From Robiginitalea marina (GTDB taxonomy: Bacteria > Bacteroidota > Bacteroidia > Flavobacteriales > Flavobacteriaceae), in the NCBI RefSeq assembly GCF_024006985.1, contig NZ_JAMXIB010000002.1, positions 186,001 to 250,000 of the forward strand: a stretch of DNA of 64,000 nucleotides, read 5' to 3'. Position 1 is the first letter of the stretch. Each line of letters starts with the position of its first letter. Both the position numbers and the translations under genes were made by a program. Positions 2,966 to 14,527 of the stretch are shown here, piece after piece. The notes beneath the pieces are model-generated. The model was given only the letters and a program-made list of their open reading frames with translations, did not search any database and was not told the DNA's origin.

Positions 2966-2991
2966 GTAAATATGATCAAAATCATATTTAC
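2966..2991. promoter_or_regulatory. CRP/FNR-type palindrome upstream of the TonB-like gene
   Basis: GTAAATATGAT and ATCATATTTAC are perfect 11-bp inverted arms around the 4-bp spacer CAAA. The core ATGAT-N4-ATCAT fits the CRP/FNR half-site pattern TGAT-N4-ATCA. A TAACTTG box at 3008-3014 lies 22 bp beyond the core, which puts the site near -40, the place for an activator of the class II type. The same core recurs at 9440-9453, and a variant at 9939-9952. Confidence 0.6.
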
Positions 2992-3049
2992 ACCCCGGGA
3001 ATTGAGGTAACTTGTTAATAGTTTATTAACAGCCAAAAATGCAACAGCC

Positions 3050-3772
3050 ATGCAAGTCAAGAAAAATCCCAACGCCGATTTAAACCGAAACAGCGGGCTT
3101 TATTTCGTAATAGGCCTGACTATCGTGCTCTTTGCTACCTGGAGGGCCCTGGAGTACAAATCCTACGACGAGGTCCAACATGAGATTGCCCTGCTCGTAA
3201 ATGCAGACAACCTCGATGAAGAGGTACCCAAAACCGAGATCATCCGCACTACACCGCCCCCGCCGCCCCCGGCCGCCCCGGAAGTTATTGAGGTGATTGA
3301 GGACACGGAGGATGTGGAGGAAACCATTATCGAAAGTACCGAAATCAGCCAGGAAACCGTAATTGCTGACGTAGACCTGGATGCTTCAGACATCGATGTG
3401 GAAGAAGCCGAGGAAGACATCCATGTCCCCTTTGCGGTCATTGAAGAAGTTCCCGTATTCCCCGGGTGTGAGGGCCTTAGCGCCGCAGAGACCCGGGAAT
3501 GCTTCAACCAGAAGATCCAGGAACACATCCAGAAGCACTTTTCCTATCCGAAAACTGCCGAAGAACTGGGGATCCAGGGCCGGGTTTTCGTACAATTCGT
3601 TATCGGCCGCGACGGCCATGTAAACCAGATCAAGACCCGGGGACCGGACCACCTCCTGGAACAGGAAGCCAGGCGCATCATCGCCTCCCTCCCGCCAATG
3701 ACCCCCGGGAAACAGCGCAACCGCACCGTAAGCGTGCCCTATAGTATCCCGATCAATTTCAAATTGATGTAA
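3050..3772 (+). CDS. TonB-like energy-transducer protein
   Basis: A 240-residue protein with one N-terminal membrane anchor (about residues 16-34), a proline run (TTPPPPPPAAP, about residues 66-76), a very acidic periplasmic spacer (about 78-130) and a TonB C-terminal domain (about 145-240) with the usual pattern YPKTAEELGIQGRVFVQFVI. Such proteins carry proton-motive energy from ExbB/ExbD to outer-membrane receptors. No exbB or exbD is adjacent; flavobacteria carry several stand-alone TonB genes. The acidic spacer replaces the more usual Pro/Lys spacer. The upstream palindrome suggests control by a CRP/FNR-family protein, and the cardiolipin synthase gene follows at once. Confidence 0.88.
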   Translation: MQVKKNPNADLNRNSGLYFVIGLTIVLFATWRALEYKSYDEVQHEIALLVNADNLDEEVPKTEIIRTTPPPPPPAAPEVIEVIEDTEDVEETIIESTEISQETVIADVDLDASDIDVEEAEEDIHVPFAVIEEVPVFPGCEGLSAAETRECFNQKIQEHIQKHFSYPKTAEELGIQGRVFVQFVIGRDGHVNQIKTRGPDHLLEQEARRIIASLPPMTPGKQRNRTVSVPYSIPINFKLM

Positions 3773-3777
3773 CTTTG
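3770..3777 (+). promoter_or_regulatory. -7 box of a candidate cardiolipin synthase promoter
   Basis: TAACTTTG matches the Bacteroidota -7 consensus TAnnTTTG exactly. It overlaps the stop codon of the TonB-like gene and lies 16 bp before the GTG start of the cardiolipin synthase. The downstream gene may thus have its own promoter as well as read-through. Confidence 0.45.
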
Positions 3778-3793
3778 GGGCAAAGCCTTTAAC

Positions 3794-5197
3794 GTGGAAT
3801 GGACGGGGATCCTGGTCGCGGTATACGTACTGATTGCCCTATCGATTATTGTAAGCCTCCTGCTGAATGGTGTTCGACCCTCGAAGACATTGGCTTGGCT
3901 GTTAGCCATTTTCACCATTCCGGTAGGAGGCATACTGTTATACCTGCTCCTGGGCCGCAACCGCCGAAAGCTAAAACTATACACCCGAAAAATCCGGAAA
4001 CCCCTCCCCGAAACCCCGGGGGATGTTGAAGCCTGCCCACCGCTTACCCGAAGGATGGACCAGATGCGGACCCTTGTCGAGACCCAGGCGGGATTCCCCT
4101 TAAGTTGCGACAACGAGGTTGAACTGCTCAAAGACGGGGAAAAGACCTTTACCCACATCTTCAGGGCCCTGGAATCGGCCCGGGAAAGCATCCATGTACA
4201 ATATTATATCTTCGAGGAAGGGGAACTGGCAGACCGCCTGCTGGAGCTCTTCGCCGCCAAAGAGGCATCGGGGGTGGAGGTACGCCTTATTTACGACAAT
4301 ATCGGCAGCCTGTCCCTGAGCAGGTCCTACCTCAGGCGCCTGCGGGATGCGGGGATCGAAGTGCATAACTTCCTGCCCTACCGGTTTGGGAAATTCCTGA
4401 CCTCCCTAAACTACCGAAACCACCGGAAAATCATTGTGGTGGACGGAAAAATTGCCTTTACCGGTGGGATCAACATTTCGGACAAATACCTGAAAGGCGA
4501 TAAAAACCTTGGCAAGTGGCACGACATGCACCTTATGGTCAGGGGAAGTGCGGCCCACCACCTCGATACCGTATTCCTGAACGACTGGGAAATGGTCAGT
4601 GGGCATCGACTCCCCTTCGATCCGCCCGCCTTCCCCTCCCGCCCCGGGATGAACCGGGTACAGATCCTCGCCACAGGGCCCGACGACGATTTCGCCCTGA
4701 TGGAAAAACTCTATTTTTCCCTGATCAACGGGGCGCGTAAGCACGTGTACATCACGAACCCCTACATCATCCCCAGCCATGCCATCCTGACGGCCCTGCA
4801 TACAGCCGCCCTTGGAGGGGTCGACGTGCGCCTGCTACTGTCAGCCAAGGCCGACAATGCGTTGGTCTCGTGGTGCGTTCAGTCTTATTTTCAGCGTTTC
4901 CTCAAGGCAGGGGTACGGATCTTCCTATATCCCGAAGGCTTTCTCCACAGCAAGATCATCACCATAGACGACGAGGTATCCACCATCGGAACCGCCAATG
5001 TGGACGACCGGAGCTTCCAGCACAACTATGAGGTCAATGCCGTGGTTTACGAACGGGGGCCGGCCCTGGAACTTAGGCGATATTTTGAGGAAGACAGCGC
5101 CAAAAGCATAGAACTCGATTACGAGACCTTCAGCCGGCGGCCCTGGCTCCATAAGCTGGCCGAAGGGGCGGCAAGGGTCCTGAGTCCGCTCCTTTAG
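3794..5197 (+). CDS. cls: Cardiolipin synthase (phospholipase D family)
   Basis: A 467-residue inner-membrane enzyme that joins two phosphatidylglycerols into cardiolipin and glycerol. Two N-terminal membrane segments (about residues 3-22 and 34-52) are followed by two PLD domains. The HKD motifs are HRKIIVVDGKIAFTGG (histidine near 211) and HSKIITIDDEVSTIGTANVD (histidine near 385), both with H, K and D intact. The start is GTG at 3794; no in-frame ATG gives the first membrane helix. It follows the TonB-like gene by 21 bp. Its 3' end overlaps the convergent lipoprotein gene by four bases. Confidence 0.92.
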   Translation: MEWTGILVAVYVLIALSIIVSLLLNGVRPSKTLAWLLAIFTIPVGGILLYLLLGRNRRKLKLYTRKIRKPLPETPGDVEACPPLTRRMDQMRTLVETQAGFPLSCDNEVELLKDGEKTFTHIFRALESARESIHVQYYIFEEGELADRLLELFAAKEASGVEVRLIYDNIGSLSLSRSYLRRLRDAGIEVHNFLPYRFGKFLTSLNYRNHRKIIVVDGKIAFTGGINISDKYLKGDKNLGKWHDMHLMVRGSAAHHLDTVFLNDWEMVSGHRLPFDPPAFPSRPGMNRVQILATGPDDDFALMEKLYFSLINGARKHVYITNPYIIPSHAILTALHTAALGGVDVRLLLSAKADNALVSWCVQSYFQRFLKAGVRIFLYPEGFLHSKIITIDDEVSTIGTANVDDRSFQHNYEVNAVVYERGPALELRRYFEEDSAKSIELDYETFSRRPWLHKLAEGAARVLSPLL

Positions 5198-5859
5198 CCG
5201 CCATGGGCTGGCAGGCCCAGGATGAGCTGCTCCCGTTTCAGGGTCGCAATTAGCCAGTCTACATAGCCGGCAATGGAACTGTCGGCCCTCCGCGGGTGGC
5301 GCAGGCGCACCCTGGAACGCCAAAGCAGGTCGCGCTCCTTCCCCACACAAATACAGTAAAGTGAGGTTTCCACGAAATATATTTTTTTCTCTTGTGGGGC
5401 CTCCTGATCGTAAAAAATACCCTGGTGGACCAGGTAATCGTCCCTAAACCGGTCATAGGTCTTCCCCAGTTCCTGTATGGTTCCCTTCAGCGAAGCGAAT
5501 CCCTCCTCCTGAGGGATCAGTTTGGTCAGCAGGATGGCGTCGAAATCCCGGTCGAGCAATTGCCCTTCCACCCGATCCAGGTCGGCTTCAGACTGCTCCG
5601 CAGCGGAAAAAGAAAGGTCAAAAAGGTCGATGCTGCGGAAGGCATCCACACCTTTGGAATGGAGGGCATCCCTTAAGGCGGTTTCATATTGGATTCGGTA
5701 ATCGGCCTGTTGTGTCATCCCCAGGACCAGGACCCTGTTGGCGTGAAAAAGGACTACGTCCGGGCTCCTGTAGGAGGCCTCAGGACGCACAGACGCACAA
5801 CTTCCCAATAAGAACAATACCGGGAGGAACAACAGGGAAATGGGTCTTAAGGGGTTCAT
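5194..5859 (-). CDS. Hypothetical lipoprotein
   Basis: A 221-residue protein with a lipoprotein signal peptide: hydrophobic segment about residues 7-19, then lipobox LGSC with the acceptor cysteine near residue 21. The mature part is an alpha/beta-looking domain (VLVLGMTQQADYRIQYETAL near residues 49-68) that recalls periplasmic lipoproteins sensing or handling cell-envelope stress, but I cannot name a family. It is convergent with cardiolipin synthase (4-base overlap) and lies 11 bp after the small gene 5871-6179 on the same strand. It may therefore be the last gene of the run that begins with the universal stress protein. Confidence 0.7.
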   Translation of the reverse strand: MNPLRPISLLFLPVLFLLGSCASVRPEASYRSPDVVLFHANRVLVLGMTQQADYRIQYETALRDALHSKGVDAFRSIDLFDLSFSAAEQSEADLDRVEGQLLDRDFDAILLTKLIPQEEGFASLKGTIQELGKTYDRFRDDYLVHQGIFYDQEAPQEKKIYFVETSLYCICVGKERDLLWRSRVRLRHPRRADSSIAGYVDWLIATLKREQLILGLPAHGG

Positions 5860-5870
5860 CGCACAGGTTC

Positions 5871-6179
5871 TTAACCGGGTTGCAGCTGACTTTGCAGATA
5901 CTCAAAGACCTCGGACTTCCACCCCCAAAACCGGGACTGAAAGCGCGAAAGATCGGCTTCTCGTGTTGGGTCAAGCTGCTGCAATTCAGATTGCCATTCA
6001 CCAGCCTGTCGGACATACTGCCGAAGGCGTTCGAAAAGATTGGGGCTTTTGCCCTGGTAAATCGGGGTCTCCAGCAGGAAACGGATAAACCTCAGGTCTG
6101 TTTCCATGGCCCGGAGGCTTCCTGTGCCCGGATCAGGGGGCGTGTTTTGGGCAGCTTGGGGTTCCATATCGATACTCAT
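5871..6179 (-). CDS. Hypothetical small soluble protein
   Basis: A 102-residue protein without signal peptide or membrane segment. After a disordered, proline-rich start (about 20 residues) it is predicted helical, rich in aromatic and charged residues (FWGWKSEVFEYLQSQL near the end). I recognise no family. It lies on the same strand as, and 47 bp downstream of, the beta-CASP hydrolase, and 11 bp before the lipoprotein gene. An alternative in-frame ATG lies at codon 5, and another at about codon 25. Coding potential rests on codon use like its neighbours and on tight spacing. Confidence 0.5.
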   Translation of the reverse strand: MSIDMEPQAAQNTPPDPGTGSLRAMETDLRFIRFLLETPIYQGKSPNLFERLRQYVRQAGEWQSELQQLDPTREADLSRFQSRFWGWKSEVFEYLQSQLQPG

Positions 6180-6226
6180 TTGATTTACAAGATACGCGTT
6201 TTATCACGTTCGGGGCATGATACCGG

Positions 6227-7606
6227 TCATCCCTGTTCGAGAGGGATGACCACCTGATCATATAGGCGGGGGAGGCGGGCATTCCACCCCCTTTGCTCTA
6301 GAAGCTTCACCCGGAAGGCGTCCCTGGCGGTGTCTTCCCCGTGGACCAGGAAGACATACCCGGGTTCCTTCTCCAGGAGGGCAAGCCAGTGCAGGAGTTC
6401 CCCCTGGTCGGCATGGGCAGAAAGGGTCTCGAGCAAATACACCCGGGCAGCCACGGGGACGAATTTGCCAAAGATCTTGAGCTCATGGGCCCCTTCCAGC
6501 AGGTTTCGCCCTCGGGTCCCCTCGGCCTGGAACCCCACCAAAAGGATGCGGGTGGTCTCCCGGTCGAGCAACTGGCTGAGGTAGGTCAGGACGCGCCCCC
6601 CGCTGAGCATGCCGCTTCCTGCCACCACTACCCGGGGTCGTGGGTCGTCAATGGCCTTCCAGGTATCGGCATATTCGGTAATTATGGTCATTTGGTTTCG
6701 CATGGCGCGGTATTCCTCCATCTCCAGGTGGTGCCAGTGCGGGAAGCGCTCAAAGAGGTCCAGGACGTTTTCACCCATGGGGCTGTCGATGTAAATCGGC
6801 ATCGGTGGGATCCGGTTGGAACGGAGGAGCTTCCATATCAGGTACATAACGGTCTGCAAACGCTCCACTGCGAAACTTGGTATGATACAGGCCCCCCGAT
6901 CGTGGATCGCCCCTTTGATGTGCTGTTCCAGCAAGACCTCCATATCCTCGCGGGGGTGGAGTTTGTTGCCATAGGTGCTCTCGAGCAATAGCACATCGGC
7001 CTTCCCGGGCCGTAACGGAGGGTCCAGGAGCTGGTCATCGGGCCTCCCGACATCCCCTGAGAAGACAAAACGCTTCCCTCCCGTTTCCAACTCCACGAAA
7101 CAGGCGCCTAAAATATGCCCGTTGTAACGTAGGCGAAACCGGATGCCCGGAGCAGGGGTTTCCCATTCTTCGCGGGGAACCGGCTGGAACAGGGCGATGC
7201 AGGCCCTGGCATCATCGAGGGTGTACAGGGGCTCGGGGACCTCGTGTTTGCTATACCCTTCCTCCAGGGCTTTTTCAGCCTCCTCCATATGGATCCGGGC
7301 GCTGTCTTCCAATACGATGCGCGCCACTTCCAGGGAAGGGGCTGTTCCGTAGACAGGTCCCTTGAACCCGTCCCGCACCAGCCGTGGAAGGAGGCCCACA
7401 TGGTCGAGGTGGCCATGGGTGATCACCACCAGGTCAATGGTTGAAGGGGGTACGGGCCATGGGTTTCGGTTCAGCTCCCGCTGGCGCTTCAGCCCCTGGA
7501 ACATGCCGCAATCGACCAGCATCCGCGTCCCCGGGAGTTCCAGCAGGTATTTGGAACCGGTAACGCCTCCCGAGGCCCCCCAAAAATGTAGTGTTCCAGT
7601 CTTCAT
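6227..7606 (-). CDS. Metallo-beta-lactamase fold / beta-CASP RNase-like hydrolase
   Basis: About 459 residues. Near the N-terminus is the zinc motif HGHLDH (residues 64-69), followed by a beta-CASP region with ESTYGNKLHPRE and the later histidine-bearing LSAHADQGEL typical of the CPSF/YSH1-like exonuclease family. These proteins process RNA; the substrate here is unknown. I start it at the ATG 7604-7606 (MKTGTLHFWG), because this gives the family N-terminus and a 4-base ATGA overlap with the upstream nuclease gene; an ATG seven codons earlier is also in frame. The overlap implies translation coupled with the ATP-cone nuclease. Confidence 0.88.
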   Translation of the reverse strand: MKTGTLHFWGASGGVTGSKYLLELPGTRMLVDCGMFQGLKRQRELNRNPWPVPPSTIDLVVITHGHLDHVGLLPRLVRDGFKGPVYGTAPSLEVARIVLEDSARIHMEEAEKALEEGYSKHEVPEPLYTLDDARACIALFQPVPREEWETPAPGIRFRLRYNGHILGACFVELETGGKRFVFSGDVGRPDDQLLDPPLRPGKADVLLLESTYGNKLHPREDMEVLLEQHIKGAIHDRGACIIPSFAVERLQTVMYLIWKLLRSNRIPPMPIYIDSPMGENVLDLFERFPHWHHLEMEEYRAMRNQMTIITEYADTWKAIDDPRPRVVVAGSGMLSGGRVLTYLSQLLDRETTRILLVGFQAEGTRGRNLLEGAHELKIFGKFVPVAARVYLLETLSAHADQGELLHWLALLEKEPGYVFLVHGEDTARDAFRVKLLEQRGWNARLPRLYDQVVIPLEQG

Positions 7607-8508
7607 GGTTCGGAAAACACATTGCACAATTGCTCCACCTCCGATAGGATCCGCTTTTTCCGGCTATCCTTAATCCCTATATGATCCAGCAGATACGGGG
7701 CTTCCAACAATTGCCTGCACAGGACGATGCCCCGGTCGAGCAGGAATTCCCTTTCCCTGGAACTAAGCAGCATGCTCACGGTAATGGGATAAAGCCCCGA
7801 ACGGTCGATCCTCCGTTTCAGGCTCTCCCCCGCCGGATAGTTCCAACTCAGCAGGTACAGCCCTGCACACGCCCCGTACTTCTGGGCATCTGCAGTGAAG
7901 CGGGTGTTGGTGACCACCCAGGCCGGGTTCAGCCGGAGGGCAGGGGTCTTTCCTGACTCGTTCCACCGTTGGATATCGCGAAACCGGGAATGGATATACA
8001 GGGGCACCTTTACATCGCATTTTTTTCCTTCATCGGAATGGAATTTGCATTCAATCAGGGTCACCCCTTCCCCGTTTTCCGCAACCACATCGATTTCGTG
8101 GGCCACGCAATACCCCTGAAACACCTCATTGGTCCGGGTCCTGTGCCCGGAATGGTCCAAAATGGCGCTGACGAATTTCTCAAAGGGAAAGCCTGTAGGG
8201 CCGAGTTCGTAGATGGCTTTTTTCAGTTTATAGCGCGAGGCGCAGGATTTCCGGTAATTTTTCAACAAGGCAAAGGCCCTGTTGTACACTTCCCGGGTAG
8301 TCATCCCCTCATAGTGCTCCCCGGAAACCTTTTCCACAATGGCCTCCACCACCCCGGGCGGTGCCCCGCTGCGCTCAAGGGAAAGGCCCAGCTTATCCGG
8401 TTCGAAGCGGACAGTGTCTCCGGAAGATTTAATGATGGTCCTCTGGTTTTTCATCGGGGCATCTTTACCCCGTCTGCCGGGCTTCCCGCCCTTTTCTTGT
8501 TTCCCCAT
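7603..8508 (-). CDS. ATP-cone domain fused to an Mrr-like restriction endonuclease domain
   Basis: A 301-residue fusion. Residues about 20-105 form an ATP-cone (nucleotide-sensing domain known from ribonucleotide reductase and NrdR). Residues about 108-230 form a PD-(D/E)XK nuclease of the Mrr type with FE at 109-110, catalytic Asp140 (AHEIDVVAENG) and E153-C-K155 (LIECKFH), all intact. The C-terminus is helical and may bind nucleic acid. The fusion suggests a nuclease gated by ATP/dATP level, which is inference. It is overlapped by the beta-CASP gene and lies 32 bp behind the universal stress gene. An ATG at codon 19 is an alternative start that leaves both domains whole. Confidence 0.82.
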   Translation of the reverse strand: MGKQEKGGKPGRRGKDAPMKNQRTIIKSSGDTVRFEPDKLGLSLERSGAPPGVVEAIVEKVSGEHYEGMTTREVYNRAFALLKNYRKSCASRYKLKKAIYELGPTGFPFEKFVSAILDHSGHRTRTNEVFQGYCVAHEIDVVAENGEGVTLIECKFHSDEGKKCDVKVPLYIHSRFRDIQRWNESGKTPALRLNPAWVVTNTRFTADAQKYGACAGLYLLSWNYPAGESLKRRIDRSGLYPITVSMLLSSREREFLLDRGIVLCRQLLEAPYLLDHIGIKDSRKKRILSEVEQLCNVFSEP

Positions 8509-8540
8509 ATCCGTTTGTTAGCGGTCCATAGCCCTTACCC

Positions 8541-9389
8541 TCAGCCTTCAGGGCGTGGGATAACCATAAAGGGGATCTTACTGTGGAACCCGATCAGGTC
8601 GATCACCGGGGTTACCAGCAAGTTCTCCAGGAAGGTGTGCTGGTTGCGCACCATGACCAGGAGTTGGACAGGCACGCGGCCGGCATACCGGTTTATCGCC
8701 CCAACAAGGTCTTCCTCCCCGGTTTCAGTGATCTCCGCCCGGTATGGGGCCAGGAGCTCTTCGAGCTGTTCCCTGGATCGCTGCCTGCCGGGGCGGGAAT
8801 CGGCTTCGGTGTAGGCGTGCAGCACATGAAGGCTCACGCCGGGCCTACCCAGGATCTGCAGCAATACCTTCAGGGGCAGGCGGGCGTAATCAGGGGCAAA
8901 ATCGGTGGGAAAGAGGATGTGCTTCAATTCCGTTACCTCTGCGCCTTCAGGAACCACCAAAACCGGGCAGGTGGCCTTGTGAAGCACCTGTACCGCATTG
9001 GTCCCGAACAATACCTCCATGGCCCCGGTCGCCCCCTGCGTACCCATGACCACAAGGTCAAGGGTTTCCTTCTCCCCCATCTGGTTCAGTTCCTCGGCCA
9101 GCGAATTAAAGGCCGCATGGCAAATAAATTCATGGTTCTTCTGGTTGGTCCGGGCCTGTAGCTTCTTCTGGAATTTGGCCAGCTTTTGCATAACCCGTTC
9201 CCGGTAAAAATCGCCAAGGCCAATCTGTCCCGGGCTGTGGAGCAGGTAATCTGCCCTGTAGAACGCCGGGGTGTAGGTATGAACAAGGAAAAAAAGGCAT
9301 TTTTGCCCTGAAAACAACTCCAGGGCAAAATGGGCGGCTTTTTCGGCATTTTTCGAAAAATCAGTGGGTATGGCGATACGCAGGTCCAT
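8541..9389 (-). CDS. Tandem universal stress protein
   Basis: A 282-residue protein with two UspA domains (about 1-146 and 150-280). Domain 1 has the complete ATP-binding pattern G-x2-G-x9-G-[ST] (GTQGATGAMEVLFGT); domain 2 ends in IPFMVIP without that motif, so only one half is likely to bind ATP. Usp proteins are commonly induced under starvation, stasis or low oxygen. It is the first gene of a leftward run (usp, ATP-cone nuclease, beta-CASP hydrolase) and is divergent from thioredoxin. On its strand a TACCTTTA box at 9417-9410 lies 22 bp from the shared CRP/FNR-type palindrome. Confidence 0.92.
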   Translation of the reverse strand: MDLRIAIPTDFSKNAEKAAHFALELFSGQKCLFFLVHTYTPAFYRADYLLHSPGQIGLGDFYRERVMQKLAKFQKKLQARTNQKNHEFICHAAFNSLAEELNQMGEKETLDLVVMGTQGATGAMEVLFGTNAVQVLHKATCPVLVVPEGAEVTELKHILFPTDFAPDYARLPLKVLLQILGRPGVSLHVLHAYTEADSRPGRQRSREQLEELLAPYRAEITETGEEDLVGAINRYAGRVPVQLLVMVRNQHTFLENLLVTPVIDLIGFHSKIPFMVIPRPEG

Positions 9390-9439
9390 CTCTCAGCAGT
9401 TACGGTCTTTAAAGGTACGGGAACCGGTTCAAAACAGAC

Positions 9440-9453
9440 ATGATTTACATCAT
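9440..9453. promoter_or_regulatory. CRP/FNR-type palindrome shared by usp and thioredoxin
   Basis: ATGAT-TTAC-ATCAT is a perfect dyad between two divergent genes. Rightward, the -7 box TATTTTTG (9477-9484) starts 23 bp away. Leftward, TACCTTTA (9417-9410 on the minus strand) starts 22 bp away. Both put the dyad about -40 to -41.5 from the likely start points, so one bound dimer could activate both genes. The core is the same as in the palindrome at 2972-2985. Confidence 0.65.
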
Positions 9454-9503
9454 AGTTCCCCTGCCCCGGGAATCGGTATTTTTGCCCTGATCAAGCCCGT
9501 GTT

Positions 9504-9803
9504 ATGAAAGGTTCATTCAATACCATCATCCAATCGGAAACGCCGGTCCTCATTGATTTTTATGCAGACTGGTGCGCCCCTTGCAAAATGCTCGCCCCCA
9601 TCCTGAAAGATGTGAAGGAAGAACTGGGCGACCGCCTTAAGGTCCTGAAAATCGACGTAGACCGGAATAGTGCCATAGCCGGCCGCTTCCAGGTCCGGGG
9701 CGTCCCGACCATGGTGCTTTTCAAAGAGGGGAAAGCGCTCTGGAGGCAATCCGGGGTACTCCCCAAAGACGCCATCCTGGACGCTATAAACCCCTTCCTC
9801 TGA
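9504..9803 (+). CDS. trxA: Thioredoxin
   Basis: A complete 99-residue thioredoxin without signal peptide, so cytoplasmic. The redox site WCAPCK has cysteines at 24 and 27, and the cis-proline motif GVPT lies near residue 70. It reduces protein disulfides using thioredoxin reductase, which is not encoded here. It is divergent from the universal stress gene and shares its CRP/FNR-type palindrome, with a perfect TAnnTTTG box 20 bp before the ATG. This suggests a stress-induced copy rather than the main housekeeping thioredoxin; that is inference from the promoter. Confidence 0.95.
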   Translation: MKGSFNTIIQSETPVLIDFYADWCAPCKMLAPILKDVKEELGDRLKVLKIDVDRNSAIAGRFQVRGVPTMVLFKEGKALWRQSGVLPKDAILDAINPFL

Positions 9804-9938
9804 GCGCCATGCCCCAGCCCGGGGTCATCCCCGGCCCTGGGTGTTGAAATATATTCCCCAAAGAACAAAGCCCTGTCATTATTGAGCTTACGGGATGAAT
9901 TCAGGTTCAGCGGCCCTGGTTTGGCAAGAAAGGGTAAA

Positions 9939-9952
9939 ATGAGATAAATCAT
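9939..9952. promoter_or_regulatory. CRP/FNR-type site upstream of the HlyD gene
   Basis: ATGAG-ATAA-ATCAT differs by one base from the perfect dyads at 2972-2985 and 9440-9453. A TAATTTG box at 9975-9981 lies 22 bp beyond it, the same spacing as at the other promoters. The HlyD start follows at 9997. Confidence 0.5.
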
Positions 9953-9996
9953 AGGGAAGGAAGGGATTCCGGGGTAATTTGGCTGTATCTTTAAAG

Positions 9997-11103
9997 ATGG
10001 TTATGGACCCACTTCGACTCTCCGGGTATGCGGGGTTTCCCGCCCTGGTCTTCCTTCTGTTTGCCTGTAAGGGGGAGCCAGAAACCGTGAGGCCGGAAAT
10101 CAGAGACATCACGGCTTCGGTCTATGCCTCTGCAACCGTGCAGCCCGACAGCATGTACCAGGTACATGCCGCCGTTAGCGGCATCCTCGAAAGGAACGCC
10201 GTGCAGGAAGGCGACCTGGTTGCCCCGGGGACCCTGCTGATGCACATCACCGACCGCACACCCCGGCTCAGTTCCGAAAATGCACGCCTGCAAATGGAAC
10301 TGGCTACCGAGAACTACCAGGGGCCCCACAGCCCGTTGCGGGACCTCGAGACCCGCATACGAACCGCCACCCTTACTTTCAGGGACGATTCCCTGAATTA
10401 CCGGCGGCAGGAAAAGCTCTGGTCAGAGAACATTGGCTCCAGGGCCACCCTTGAAAACCGAAAGCTGGCCTACGAGCGTTCACGCAACCAGCTGGAAGGC
10501 CTCAAAAGCGAATACATGCGTTTGGAAGACCAACTGCGCACCCTGATGATCCAGGCGCGGAATACCTTCCGGTCCAGCGTCGTCAATACCGAAGATTATG
10601 CCGTACGCAGCACGATCCATGGCAGGGTATATGCCCTGGAGAAAGAACCCGGAGAGCTTGTTGTCCCCGGCGAGCCCCTTGCCCTGCTGGGCAGCCCGGA
10701 CACTTTCGTGGTTGAATTGCTCGTGGATGAAGTGGATGTGGTAGCCCTGGAAGTAGGGCAAACAGCCCTGGTCTTGCTGGATGCCTACCCGGAAACCCTT
10801 TTTGAAACCCGGGTTTCCAAGATCTATCCCCGAAAAGACGAACGCAACCAGACTTTTACGGTGGAATCCCGTTTTGATGCCCCCCCTGCTATCCTTTACC
10901 CGGGGATGTCAGGCGAAGCCAATATCATCATCGGGAGGAAAGAAGGGGTCCTTACCATTCCGAGGGCATACCTGGCAGGCAAGGACAGCGTTCGCACCCG
11001 GGAAGGTTACCGGGCGGTAATTACCGGGCTCCAAACCCTCGACCGGGTTGAAATCCTGTCGGGCCTGGAGGCAGGAACAGAACTGTTAAAACCAGAAGAA
11101 TGA
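9997..11103 (+). CDS. HlyD/MacA-type periplasmic adaptor, lipoprotein
   Basis: About 368 residues. A signal peptide ends in lipobox LFAC (cysteine near residue 24), so this adaptor is probably lipid-anchored. Then come a beta-barrel/lipoyl half (about 45-95, VSGILERNAVQEGDLVAPGT), a coiled-coil hairpin (about 95-190), the second lipoyl half (GRVYALEKEPGELVVPGEPL) and a barrel domain to the end. Adaptors of this kind link an inner-membrane ABC pump to the outer membrane. The gene overlaps the permease by four bases (ATGA). The start could be ATG 9997 or ATG 10003; an upstream TTG would also be in frame. No outer-membrane TolC is adjacent. Confidence 0.88.
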   Translation: MVMDPLRLSGYAGFPALVFLLFACKGEPETVRPEIRDITASVYASATVQPDSMYQVHAAVSGILERNAVQEGDLVAPGTLLMHITDRTPRLSSENARLQMELATENYQGPHSPLRDLETRIRTATLTFRDDSLNYRRQEKLWSENIGSRATLENRKLAYERSRNQLEGLKSEYMRLEDQLRTLMIQARNTFRSSVVNTEDYAVRSTIHGRVYALEKEPGELVVPGEPLALLGSPDTFVVELLVDEVDVVALEVGQTALVLLDAYPETLFETRVSKIYPRKDERNQTFTVESRFDAPPAILYPGMSGEANIIIGRKEGVLTIPRAYLAGKDSVRTREGYRAVITGLQTLDRVEILSGLEAGTELLKPEE

Positions 11104-13358: not shown

Positions 13359-14249
13359 TCAGAGGTTTGTGGCTTTCAGGGATTCAAAAAGGCTTTTCTG
13401 CTCAGGGGTAAGCTTTGTGGGCAGGGCAACCTGGTAGGTAATGTAGAGGTCCCCGAAGTGTCCTTCCTTCTTGTATACGGGGAACCCTTTTCCCTTGAGT
13501 TTTACCGTGGTGGCATTCTGGGTCAGGGGCTTTACCCTGAGGTTGGCCTTGCCGTCGAAAGTGTCTACCGTAAATTCCCCGCCCAGCACGGCTGTGGTAA
13601 GGGGAAGGTCCACGGTCCGGTAGAGGTTGGCCCCTTCGCGCCGGAAGCCTGTGGCATTGTGCAACTCAAAAGTGAGGTAAAGGTCGCCCGCGGGCCCGCC
13701 ATTGATCCCCGGCCCCCCGTAGCCCCTGATCCGGATGGTCTGGCCGTTTTCAATTCCTGCGGGGATGGTGATCCGGATATTCCTGTCCCCCAGGGTAAGG
13801 GTCCGTTTATGGGTTTTGAAGGCTTCCCGCAGGTCAAGTTCCAGGGTGGCATTGAAATCCTGTCCTTTGAACCCACGGCTTCTTCCTCCCTGACGGGATC
13901 CGAAACCCCCGAACATGGATTCAAAAAAATCCGAAAAGTCGCTCCCCTCACCAGAGGAATAGGTGTATTGCCCGTAATCCGAAGACTGAGGGCCGGCCTT
14001 CCGCGCCTTTTCAAACGCTTCTGCATGCTGCCAATCCTTTCCGTACTGGTCGTATTTTTTGCGCTTCTCGGGGTCGCTGAGCACTTCGTGGGCCTCATTG
14101 ACCTGTTTGAACTTCTGCTCCGCCCCGGCATCCCCAGGGTTCAGGTCGGGGTGGTATTTTCTGGCCAGCTTGCGATACGCACTTTTGATCTCCTTTTCGG
14201 TAGCTTTCTCAGACACCCCAAGCACTTTGTAATAATCTATGAATTCCAT
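13359..14249 (-). CDS. cbpA: CbpA-like DnaJ co-chaperone
   Basis: A 296-residue J protein. The J domain (residues 5-70) has HPD at 33-35; a Gly/Phe-rich linker follows (about 105-135, with [14 protein letters not shown]); then the two beta domains of the DnaJ C-terminus (about 140-290). There is no CxxCxGxG zinc domain, which separates it from classical DnaJ and fits CbpA. It stimulates DnaK and, in E. coli, is a stationary-phase factor. CbpM follows. Its place beside the universal stress, thioredoxin and exporter genes adds to the stress character of this region, but I see no CRP/FNR site before it. Confidence 0.9.
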
Positions 14250-14404: not shown

Positions 14405-14527
14405 CCAGCACAGCAACAGGGCACAGGCACTGCTTCAAAGGTACGGGCCCCGGGGGTGTCTTTGCCCTGATATTCGTCAGTAGAGGGCGGCAAATCGGGC
14501 TTTGTTTTGATTTTTCTTCCCCAGGGG

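Follow-up and report, generated by a model that had tools for sequence, protein, structure and literature searches.

Putative class II operators of an FNR-like activator in a 64-kb stretch of Robiginitalea marina, their relatives and the regulator that may bind them

What acts on a palindrome that recurs in front of four genes is the question raised by a 64-kb stretch of the Robiginitalea marina genome (contig NZ_JAMXIB010000002.1, positions 186,001 to 250,000; hereafter the window). A sequence-only reading had reported the dyad ATGAT-N4-ATCAT at a constant distance from a -7 box before a tonB, a universal stress protein (usp), a thioredoxin (trx) and an hlyD gene, and both the sites and the distances are confirmed. 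The tonB promoter carries a perfect dyad (ATGATCAAAATCAT, 2972..2985, plus strand) 22 bp from the -7-like box TAACTTGT (3008..3015, plus), ahead of a tonB-family gene with a TonB_C domain match (3050..3772, plus). A second perfect dyad, ATGATTTACATCAT (9440..9453, unstranded), is common to the divergent usp and trx promoters. On the minus strand, the usp box TACCTTTA (9410..9417) lies 22 bp from it, followed by the universal stress protein gene (8541..9389, minus), in which two Usp stretches were matched. On the plus strand, the trx box TATTTTTG (9477..9484) lies at 23 bp, followed by the thioredoxin gene (9504..9803, plus; TIGR01068 above cut-off). The hlyD dyad ATGAGATAAATCAT (9939..9952, plus) has one mismatch and is found 22 bp from its box TAATTTGG (9975..9982, plus). 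The HlyD/RND-type adaptor gene behind it (9997..11103, plus) was taken to begin at the ATG at 9997, as the TTG start given in the ORF list (9979) falls inside the promoter box. The fixed distance of 22 or 23 bp implies a predicted dyad centre at about -40, class II sites lying near -41.5. Very probably, these dyads serve as class II operators for an FNR-like activator that would drive tonB, usp, trx and, with less assurance, hlyD at low oxygen.

The window was scanned with a weight matrix trained on 47 sites with a 22-bp gap, all from other genomes, with 40 Markov shuffles as control. The four named promoters are the four best in the window, with 34.7 bits for trx, 24.5 for usp, 20.4 for tonB and 16.3 for hlyD. 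Six rows exceed 12 bits, namely the four promoters plus a second register each for trx and tonB; the shuffles average 0.05 such rows (n = 40). The best shuffle reaches 16.1 bits, only just below hlyD, which is therefore the least secure of the four on score alone. The dyad by itself is only mildly enriched: with at most one mismatch, it occurs five times in the window against a shuffle mean of 1.22, and 4 of 100 shuffles reach five. Two one-mismatch dyads, at 1272-1285 and 6217-6230, had not been reported by the sequence-only reading. Genome-wide, 13 perfect dyads are present, six of which lie inside genes as judged by reading the open reading frames (ORFs), and the dyad alone was rejected as a promoter predictor on this ground. 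The genome-wide search for dyad plus box that had been suggested gives a different picture, with 53 full-pattern sites at gap 22 (at most two mismatches) in the own genome versus five in a reversed control. Dyad and box together are far from chance, unlike the dyad alone.

Next, the geometry was examined in a panel of 31 genomes, using ATGAN6TCAT followed by TANNTTTG 8-38 bp downstream. This resulted in 213 matches versus 82 in the reversed control. Gaps were tallied for 149 of these 213 rows, omitting 63 matches plus one listed G019 row whose gap is also 22. The gap is exactly 22 bp in 57 of the 149, while gaps besides 22 and 23 average 2.9 rows. The symmetric ATGAY/RTCAT form is present in 52 of those 57, and the consensus is corrected from ATGAT-N4-ATCAT to ATGAY-N4-RTCAT. 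None of the 13 rows from a hand-chosen set of genomes without FNR ortholog has a gap of 22 bp; this set consists of G013, G023 and G025-G029, with G026 counted despite a 26%-identical match and G009 and G016 excluded. A class-wide survey of 295 genomes found the exact pattern ATGAY-N4-RTCAT-N22-TAnnTTTG at 281 sites in 114 genomes, and the reversed pattern gave three hits. The exact site occurs in 76 of 121 genomes with a strong FNR-like homolog (E <= 1e-60), in 35 of 118 with a weak one (E 1e-20 to 1e-60) and in 3 of 56 with none.

The window's own promoters are conserved to different degrees. The usp-trx dyad is kept in all nine same-genus genomes having a trx ortholog (own included), with a trx-side TAnnTT box 22 or 23 bp away as read from the sequences; G003, the tenth genome of the genus, has no close trx ortholog. 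Outside the genus, a weaker form of the dyad is present at the trx homolog of G010, and by inspection none was seen at those of G016, G018, G024, G014 and G022. A site with a 22-bp gap precedes tonB at 14 of the 20 loci examined, i.e. all ten in the genus (own included) and four in other genera, and the box is of the TTG type in eight of these 14. At the other six (G010, G011, G013, G016, G019 and G026) the site is missing; in G013, G016 and G026, no FNR match exceeds 28% identity. An hlyD-type site (9.0-19.8 bits) is found upstream of five of nine genes (own included), each carrying the unusual half-site TGAG, and the remaining four have no like site within 300 bp. The proposed four-promoter regulon is firm for tonB and usp-trx and only partly upheld for hlyD.

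The surroundings of the usp-trx dyad vary while the dyad itself persists. Behind usp, five loci of relatives (L019, L020, L021, L025 and L026) have a gene encoding a G-[IV]-W-[MI]-D motif near the start of its product, and a different ORF is found at that position in the window, L022 and L024.

A search for CRP/FNR homologs, as the sequence-only reading had advised, identified four CRP-type helix-turn-helix matches above the Pfam cut-off in the own genome (G000), one of them with an internal stop codon. The likely regulator can now be named as the FNR-like protein encoded at G000:C46:48755-49447. Its gene is located outside the window and is flanked by a usp gene and by a gene for a metal P-type ATPase, the latter taken to be ccoI since ccoNO comes next; sites with a 22-bp gap point to both neighbours. 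Based on PF00027 (cNMP_binding) and PF13545 (Crp-type HTH), both above cut-off, the protein belongs to the CRP/FNR superfamily, whereas its score against the NCBIfam Fnr model (100.6 bits versus a cut-off of 228) does not place it with FNR of the E. coli type. Among named fnr loci, represented by the best 80 of 579 confirmed ones (Flavobacteriaceae and uncultured relatives), every one shows one or more sites above 12 bits (308 rows, with gap 22 and gap 23 counted separately); among Markov copies, 11 of 80 do (14 rows).

An alignment of orthologs was made from 21 of 30 fetched loci, nine (L099-L107) being dropped as distant or duplicate matches. Four cysteines, C7, C10, C56 and C109, are invariant in these 21 and in 81 of 81 sequences when the named set is included; the more distant L099 (from G022, 35% identical) lacks all four. 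In E. coli FNR, four cysteines hold the oxygen-labile [4Fe-4S] cluster, three of them N-terminal and one central. When compared to solved chains of FNR type regulators, three of the four invariant positions (C7, C10 and C109) fall opposite cysteines of FNR, and C56 is without a counterpart there. The four invariant cysteines may together hold an iron-sulphur cluster, which would then be the sensor. An AlphaFold2 model built from 32 sequences (mean pLDDT 66.3, pTM 0.40) is too poor to place them. In the recognition helix, E194 and R198 are present in 81 of 81 sequences; they correspond to the glutamate and arginine through which CRP and FNR recognise the GA core.

To see what such a regulator might control, genes behind sites with a gap of 22 or 23 bp and up to two mismatches were annotated in the own genome, covering 52 of the 53 genome sites and three extra sites. 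The downstream gene was taken as the longest ORF starting within range, which is wrong for some sites; at C46:138466, for instance, the correct downstream gene is the cytochrome c gene and not the longest-ORF pick. The list includes a CcoN-CcoO fusion, a ccoI-like ATPase, hemN and this cytochrome c. Also on it are pyruvate:ferredoxin oxidoreductase, 2-oxoacid:acceptor oxidoreductase, a ferredoxin-like protein and PPDK. Further sites precede genes for an adenosylcobalamin (B12)-dependent ribonucleotide reductase, Hsp20, dodecin, an M50-CBS protease, a nitroreductase, CBS proteins, DoxX proteins and several Usp. NCBIfam cut-offs are passed by hemN (TIGR00538, 411.5 bits with a cut-off of 324.95), both oxidoreductases and the B12-dependent ribonucleotide reductase. 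A high-affinity oxidase (a COX1-FixO fusion protein) is thus listed together with oxygen-independent haem synthesis (hemN), as is typical of low oxygen. In Flavobacterium psychrophilum, the cbb3 oxidase is reported to be strongly up and haem synthesis enzymes to be up too under oxygen limitation (PMC9723704); the main text of that article mentions neither fnr nor crp. Other sites precede genes whose relation to oxygen is not apparent, e.g. those for outer-membrane proteins, and chance matches will be among the 53.

Taken as a mechanism, a dimer of the FNR-like protein would bind ATGAY-N4-RTCAT centred around 40 bp upstream of the transcription start and would sit beside RNA polymerase bound to TAnnTTTG, the -7 element of Bacteroidota. 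At low oxygen, tonB, usp, trx and probably hlyD would be switched on, with the single usp-trx dyad working in both directions. The same switch would drive the cbb3 oxidase, the ccoI-like pump, hemN, the oxidoreductases that depend on ferredoxin, and a set of genes for stress survival. In silico, the class II CRP/FNR interpretation first put forward and the guess of a low-oxygen regulon both hold up, given a 22-bp geometry fixed across relatives, its co-occurrence with an FNR-like protein, the sites at all 80 named fnr loci and the target list.

Several observations weigh against this mechanism. The third N-terminal cysteine of FNR has no counterpart in the FNR-like protein, which thus does not show the arrangement of three N-terminal cysteines and one central cysteine, and oxygen sensing by it is not secured for that reason. 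Three of the 56 class genomes without homolog carry the exact site, and 45 of the 121 with a strong homolog show none. In G010, G011 and G019 an FNR homolog is present, yet the tonB gene examined has no site. G009 (74% complete) and G016 have no FNR ortholog, yet contain three and four rows at gap 22, respectively; both encode a second type of regulator, described below. The co-occurrence tests ignore phylogeny, as do the Poisson and Fisher values. Finally, two related CRP-type regulators in the own genome could share sites.

The second of these regulators is a receiver-CRP fusion (G000:C47:47164-48231; L014:1486-2556) with Response_reg, cNMP and HTH_Crp_2 domains. It adjoins a PAS-rich histidine kinase of 1249 amino acids with PAS/HisKA domains (L147:710-4459). 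The fusion is found in 10 of the 31 genomes, one copy being partial. A sister motif with the same promoter spacing, CTGAYNCAGGTCATT-N21-TAnnTTTR (at most two mismatches), is present in all ten fusion genomes and in 1 of the 21 others (once, in G025), with no reversed hits. Its consensus was drawn from 33 hand-picked rows of 55 and is an illustration only. As the motif was chosen after seeing the hits in the own genome, this genome is no test of it, while the other nine do count.

It is conceivable, if rather doubtful, that the two regulators occupy common operators, where an oxygen signal would be combined with one from the kinase. Their recognition helices are near-identical (GTATESCIR and GTATETAIR) and their motifs overlap. 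However, the same-genus genomes G002 and G003, in which FNR is present and the fusion absent, have no match to the sister motif, so the specificities of the two regulators are at least partly separate.

We consider it unlikely that the stress promoters of the window (usp-trx and hlyD) are mainly under the fusion and its PAS-rich kinase rather than FNR. Apart from the domain content and the kinase alongside, this is favoured by the way the sister motif tracks the fusion, by sites in the surroundings of the fusion gene that precede genes for Usp, Hsp20 and ribonucleotide reductase, and by a sister-type site at C22:184648, 1.3 kb ahead of the window. The window itself has no match to the sister motif, however, even at up to four mismatches, and the tonB site is present in four other-genus genomes without the fusion. 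G002 also lacks the fusion (at E 1e-40) yet keeps the usp-trx dyad, which makes the FNR-like protein the likelier binder in the window. That AT-rich palindromes stand near degenerate -7 boxes by chance, as the weak enrichment of the lone dyad and its copies inside genes might suggest, is virtually out of the question, being contradicted by the peak at gap 22, the transfer of the matrix between genomes, the conservation at orthologs and the class-wide excess over the reversed pattern.

A wider scheme can be proposed, to which we would give an even chance. In this scheme, Bacteroidota would have a promoter code of class-wide extent in which a four-cysteine FNR variant with rearranged cluster ligands and a phospho-driven receiver-CRP fusion both act at class II spacing on TAnnTTTG promoters. 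The two would be separated by small differences in half-site and spacer, with the fusion controlling an lxa-like hypoxia-survival set.

By kind, this would be an FNR-type regulon, of which the half-site, the cysteine layout and the promoter partner are variant. Like FNR of E. coli and Aliivibrio, the regulator has the CRP fold with cNMP_binding and HTH_Crp domains, an N-terminal C-x2-C and a cysteine before IP that align with FNR chains, and a palindromic site with an N4 spacer at a predicted class II distance, with hemN among the predicted targets. Unlike in those bacteria, the half-site is ATGAY and not the TTGAT of the E. coli type, the box TAnnTTTG is of the Bacteroidota type, and an invariant C56 is present with no third N-terminal cysteine.

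Other systems offer partial parallels. Anr of Pseudomonas and Burkholderia is likewise a CRP/FNR regulator with an adjacent usp gene, and is reported to have a role in anoxic survival (PMC9104464), and hemN is reported among the core Anr boxes (PMC6588701); the quoted Anr box, TTGATCTCGATCAA, differs from the site described here (PMC9104464). The lxa locus of Burkholderia cenocepacia is reported to comprise six universal stress proteins and to be induced by low oxygen (PMC9104464). The usp genes are a shared feature, whereas the genes described here are spread over several contigs; the likeness is one of gene content. The oxygen-related NmpRSTU regulon of Myxococcus xanthus similarly covers cbb3 oxidase and hemN as well as Usp and CBS proteins, but its regulator is an NtrC-like response regulator and not a CRP/FNR protein (PMC11841059). 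In another report, CRP/FNR homologs of a Flavobacteriales metagenome-assembled genome are treated as MalR-like (PMC8510549).

In the open literature, with most subscription papers outside the search, no recognisable account of this motif or of an FNR regulon in Flavobacteriia was found, and novelty is only weakly supported because of that restriction. Little oxygen-control machinery for Bacteroidota genes is described in the open papers that could be searched. A portable motif at a fixed distance from the -7 box of the phylum would make low-oxygen promoters predictable in many genomes, and class II activation at the unusual Bacteroidota promoters becomes directly testable. Two regulators with separable motifs and one spacing are also a ready case for how paralogs split a regulon.

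Besides the four promoters, two weaker sites that the sequence-only reading had missed were located in the window. One, on the minus strand (6187..6230), has the same layout, with its dyad at 6217-6230 and the box TATCTTGT at 6187-6194, before an ORF at 5871-6179. The other, also on the minus strand (14436..14480), combines the dyad CTGACGAATATCAG with the box TACCTTTG at a gap of 23 and precedes dnaJ (13359-14249, DnaJ match); with 10.6 bits, it is the fifth site of the window and lies inside the shuffle range. Elsewhere in the own genome, a symmetric site at gap 24 rather than 22 (G000:C33:49208-49283; L113) stands before an ORF read as rnpA, with a gene for a CBS-domain protein on its other side. 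Gap-24 rows ending in TATTTTTG recur in six further same-genus genomes.

Some genes near the window sites were also inspected. A beta-CASP metallo-beta-lactamase RNase is encoded at 6227-7627 (minus); its best NCBIfam match is the type VII CRISPR Cas14, an identity that was rejected with 324.9 bits against a cut-off of 800. Beside usp in the stress cluster, a protein of 301 amino acids (7603-8508, minus) matches nothing in Pfam or NCBIfam at E 0.001. At 334-2945, directly preceding the tonB site, a LysR-type regulator is divergent from a small gene group that ends in an Sbt_1 bicarbonate transporter.

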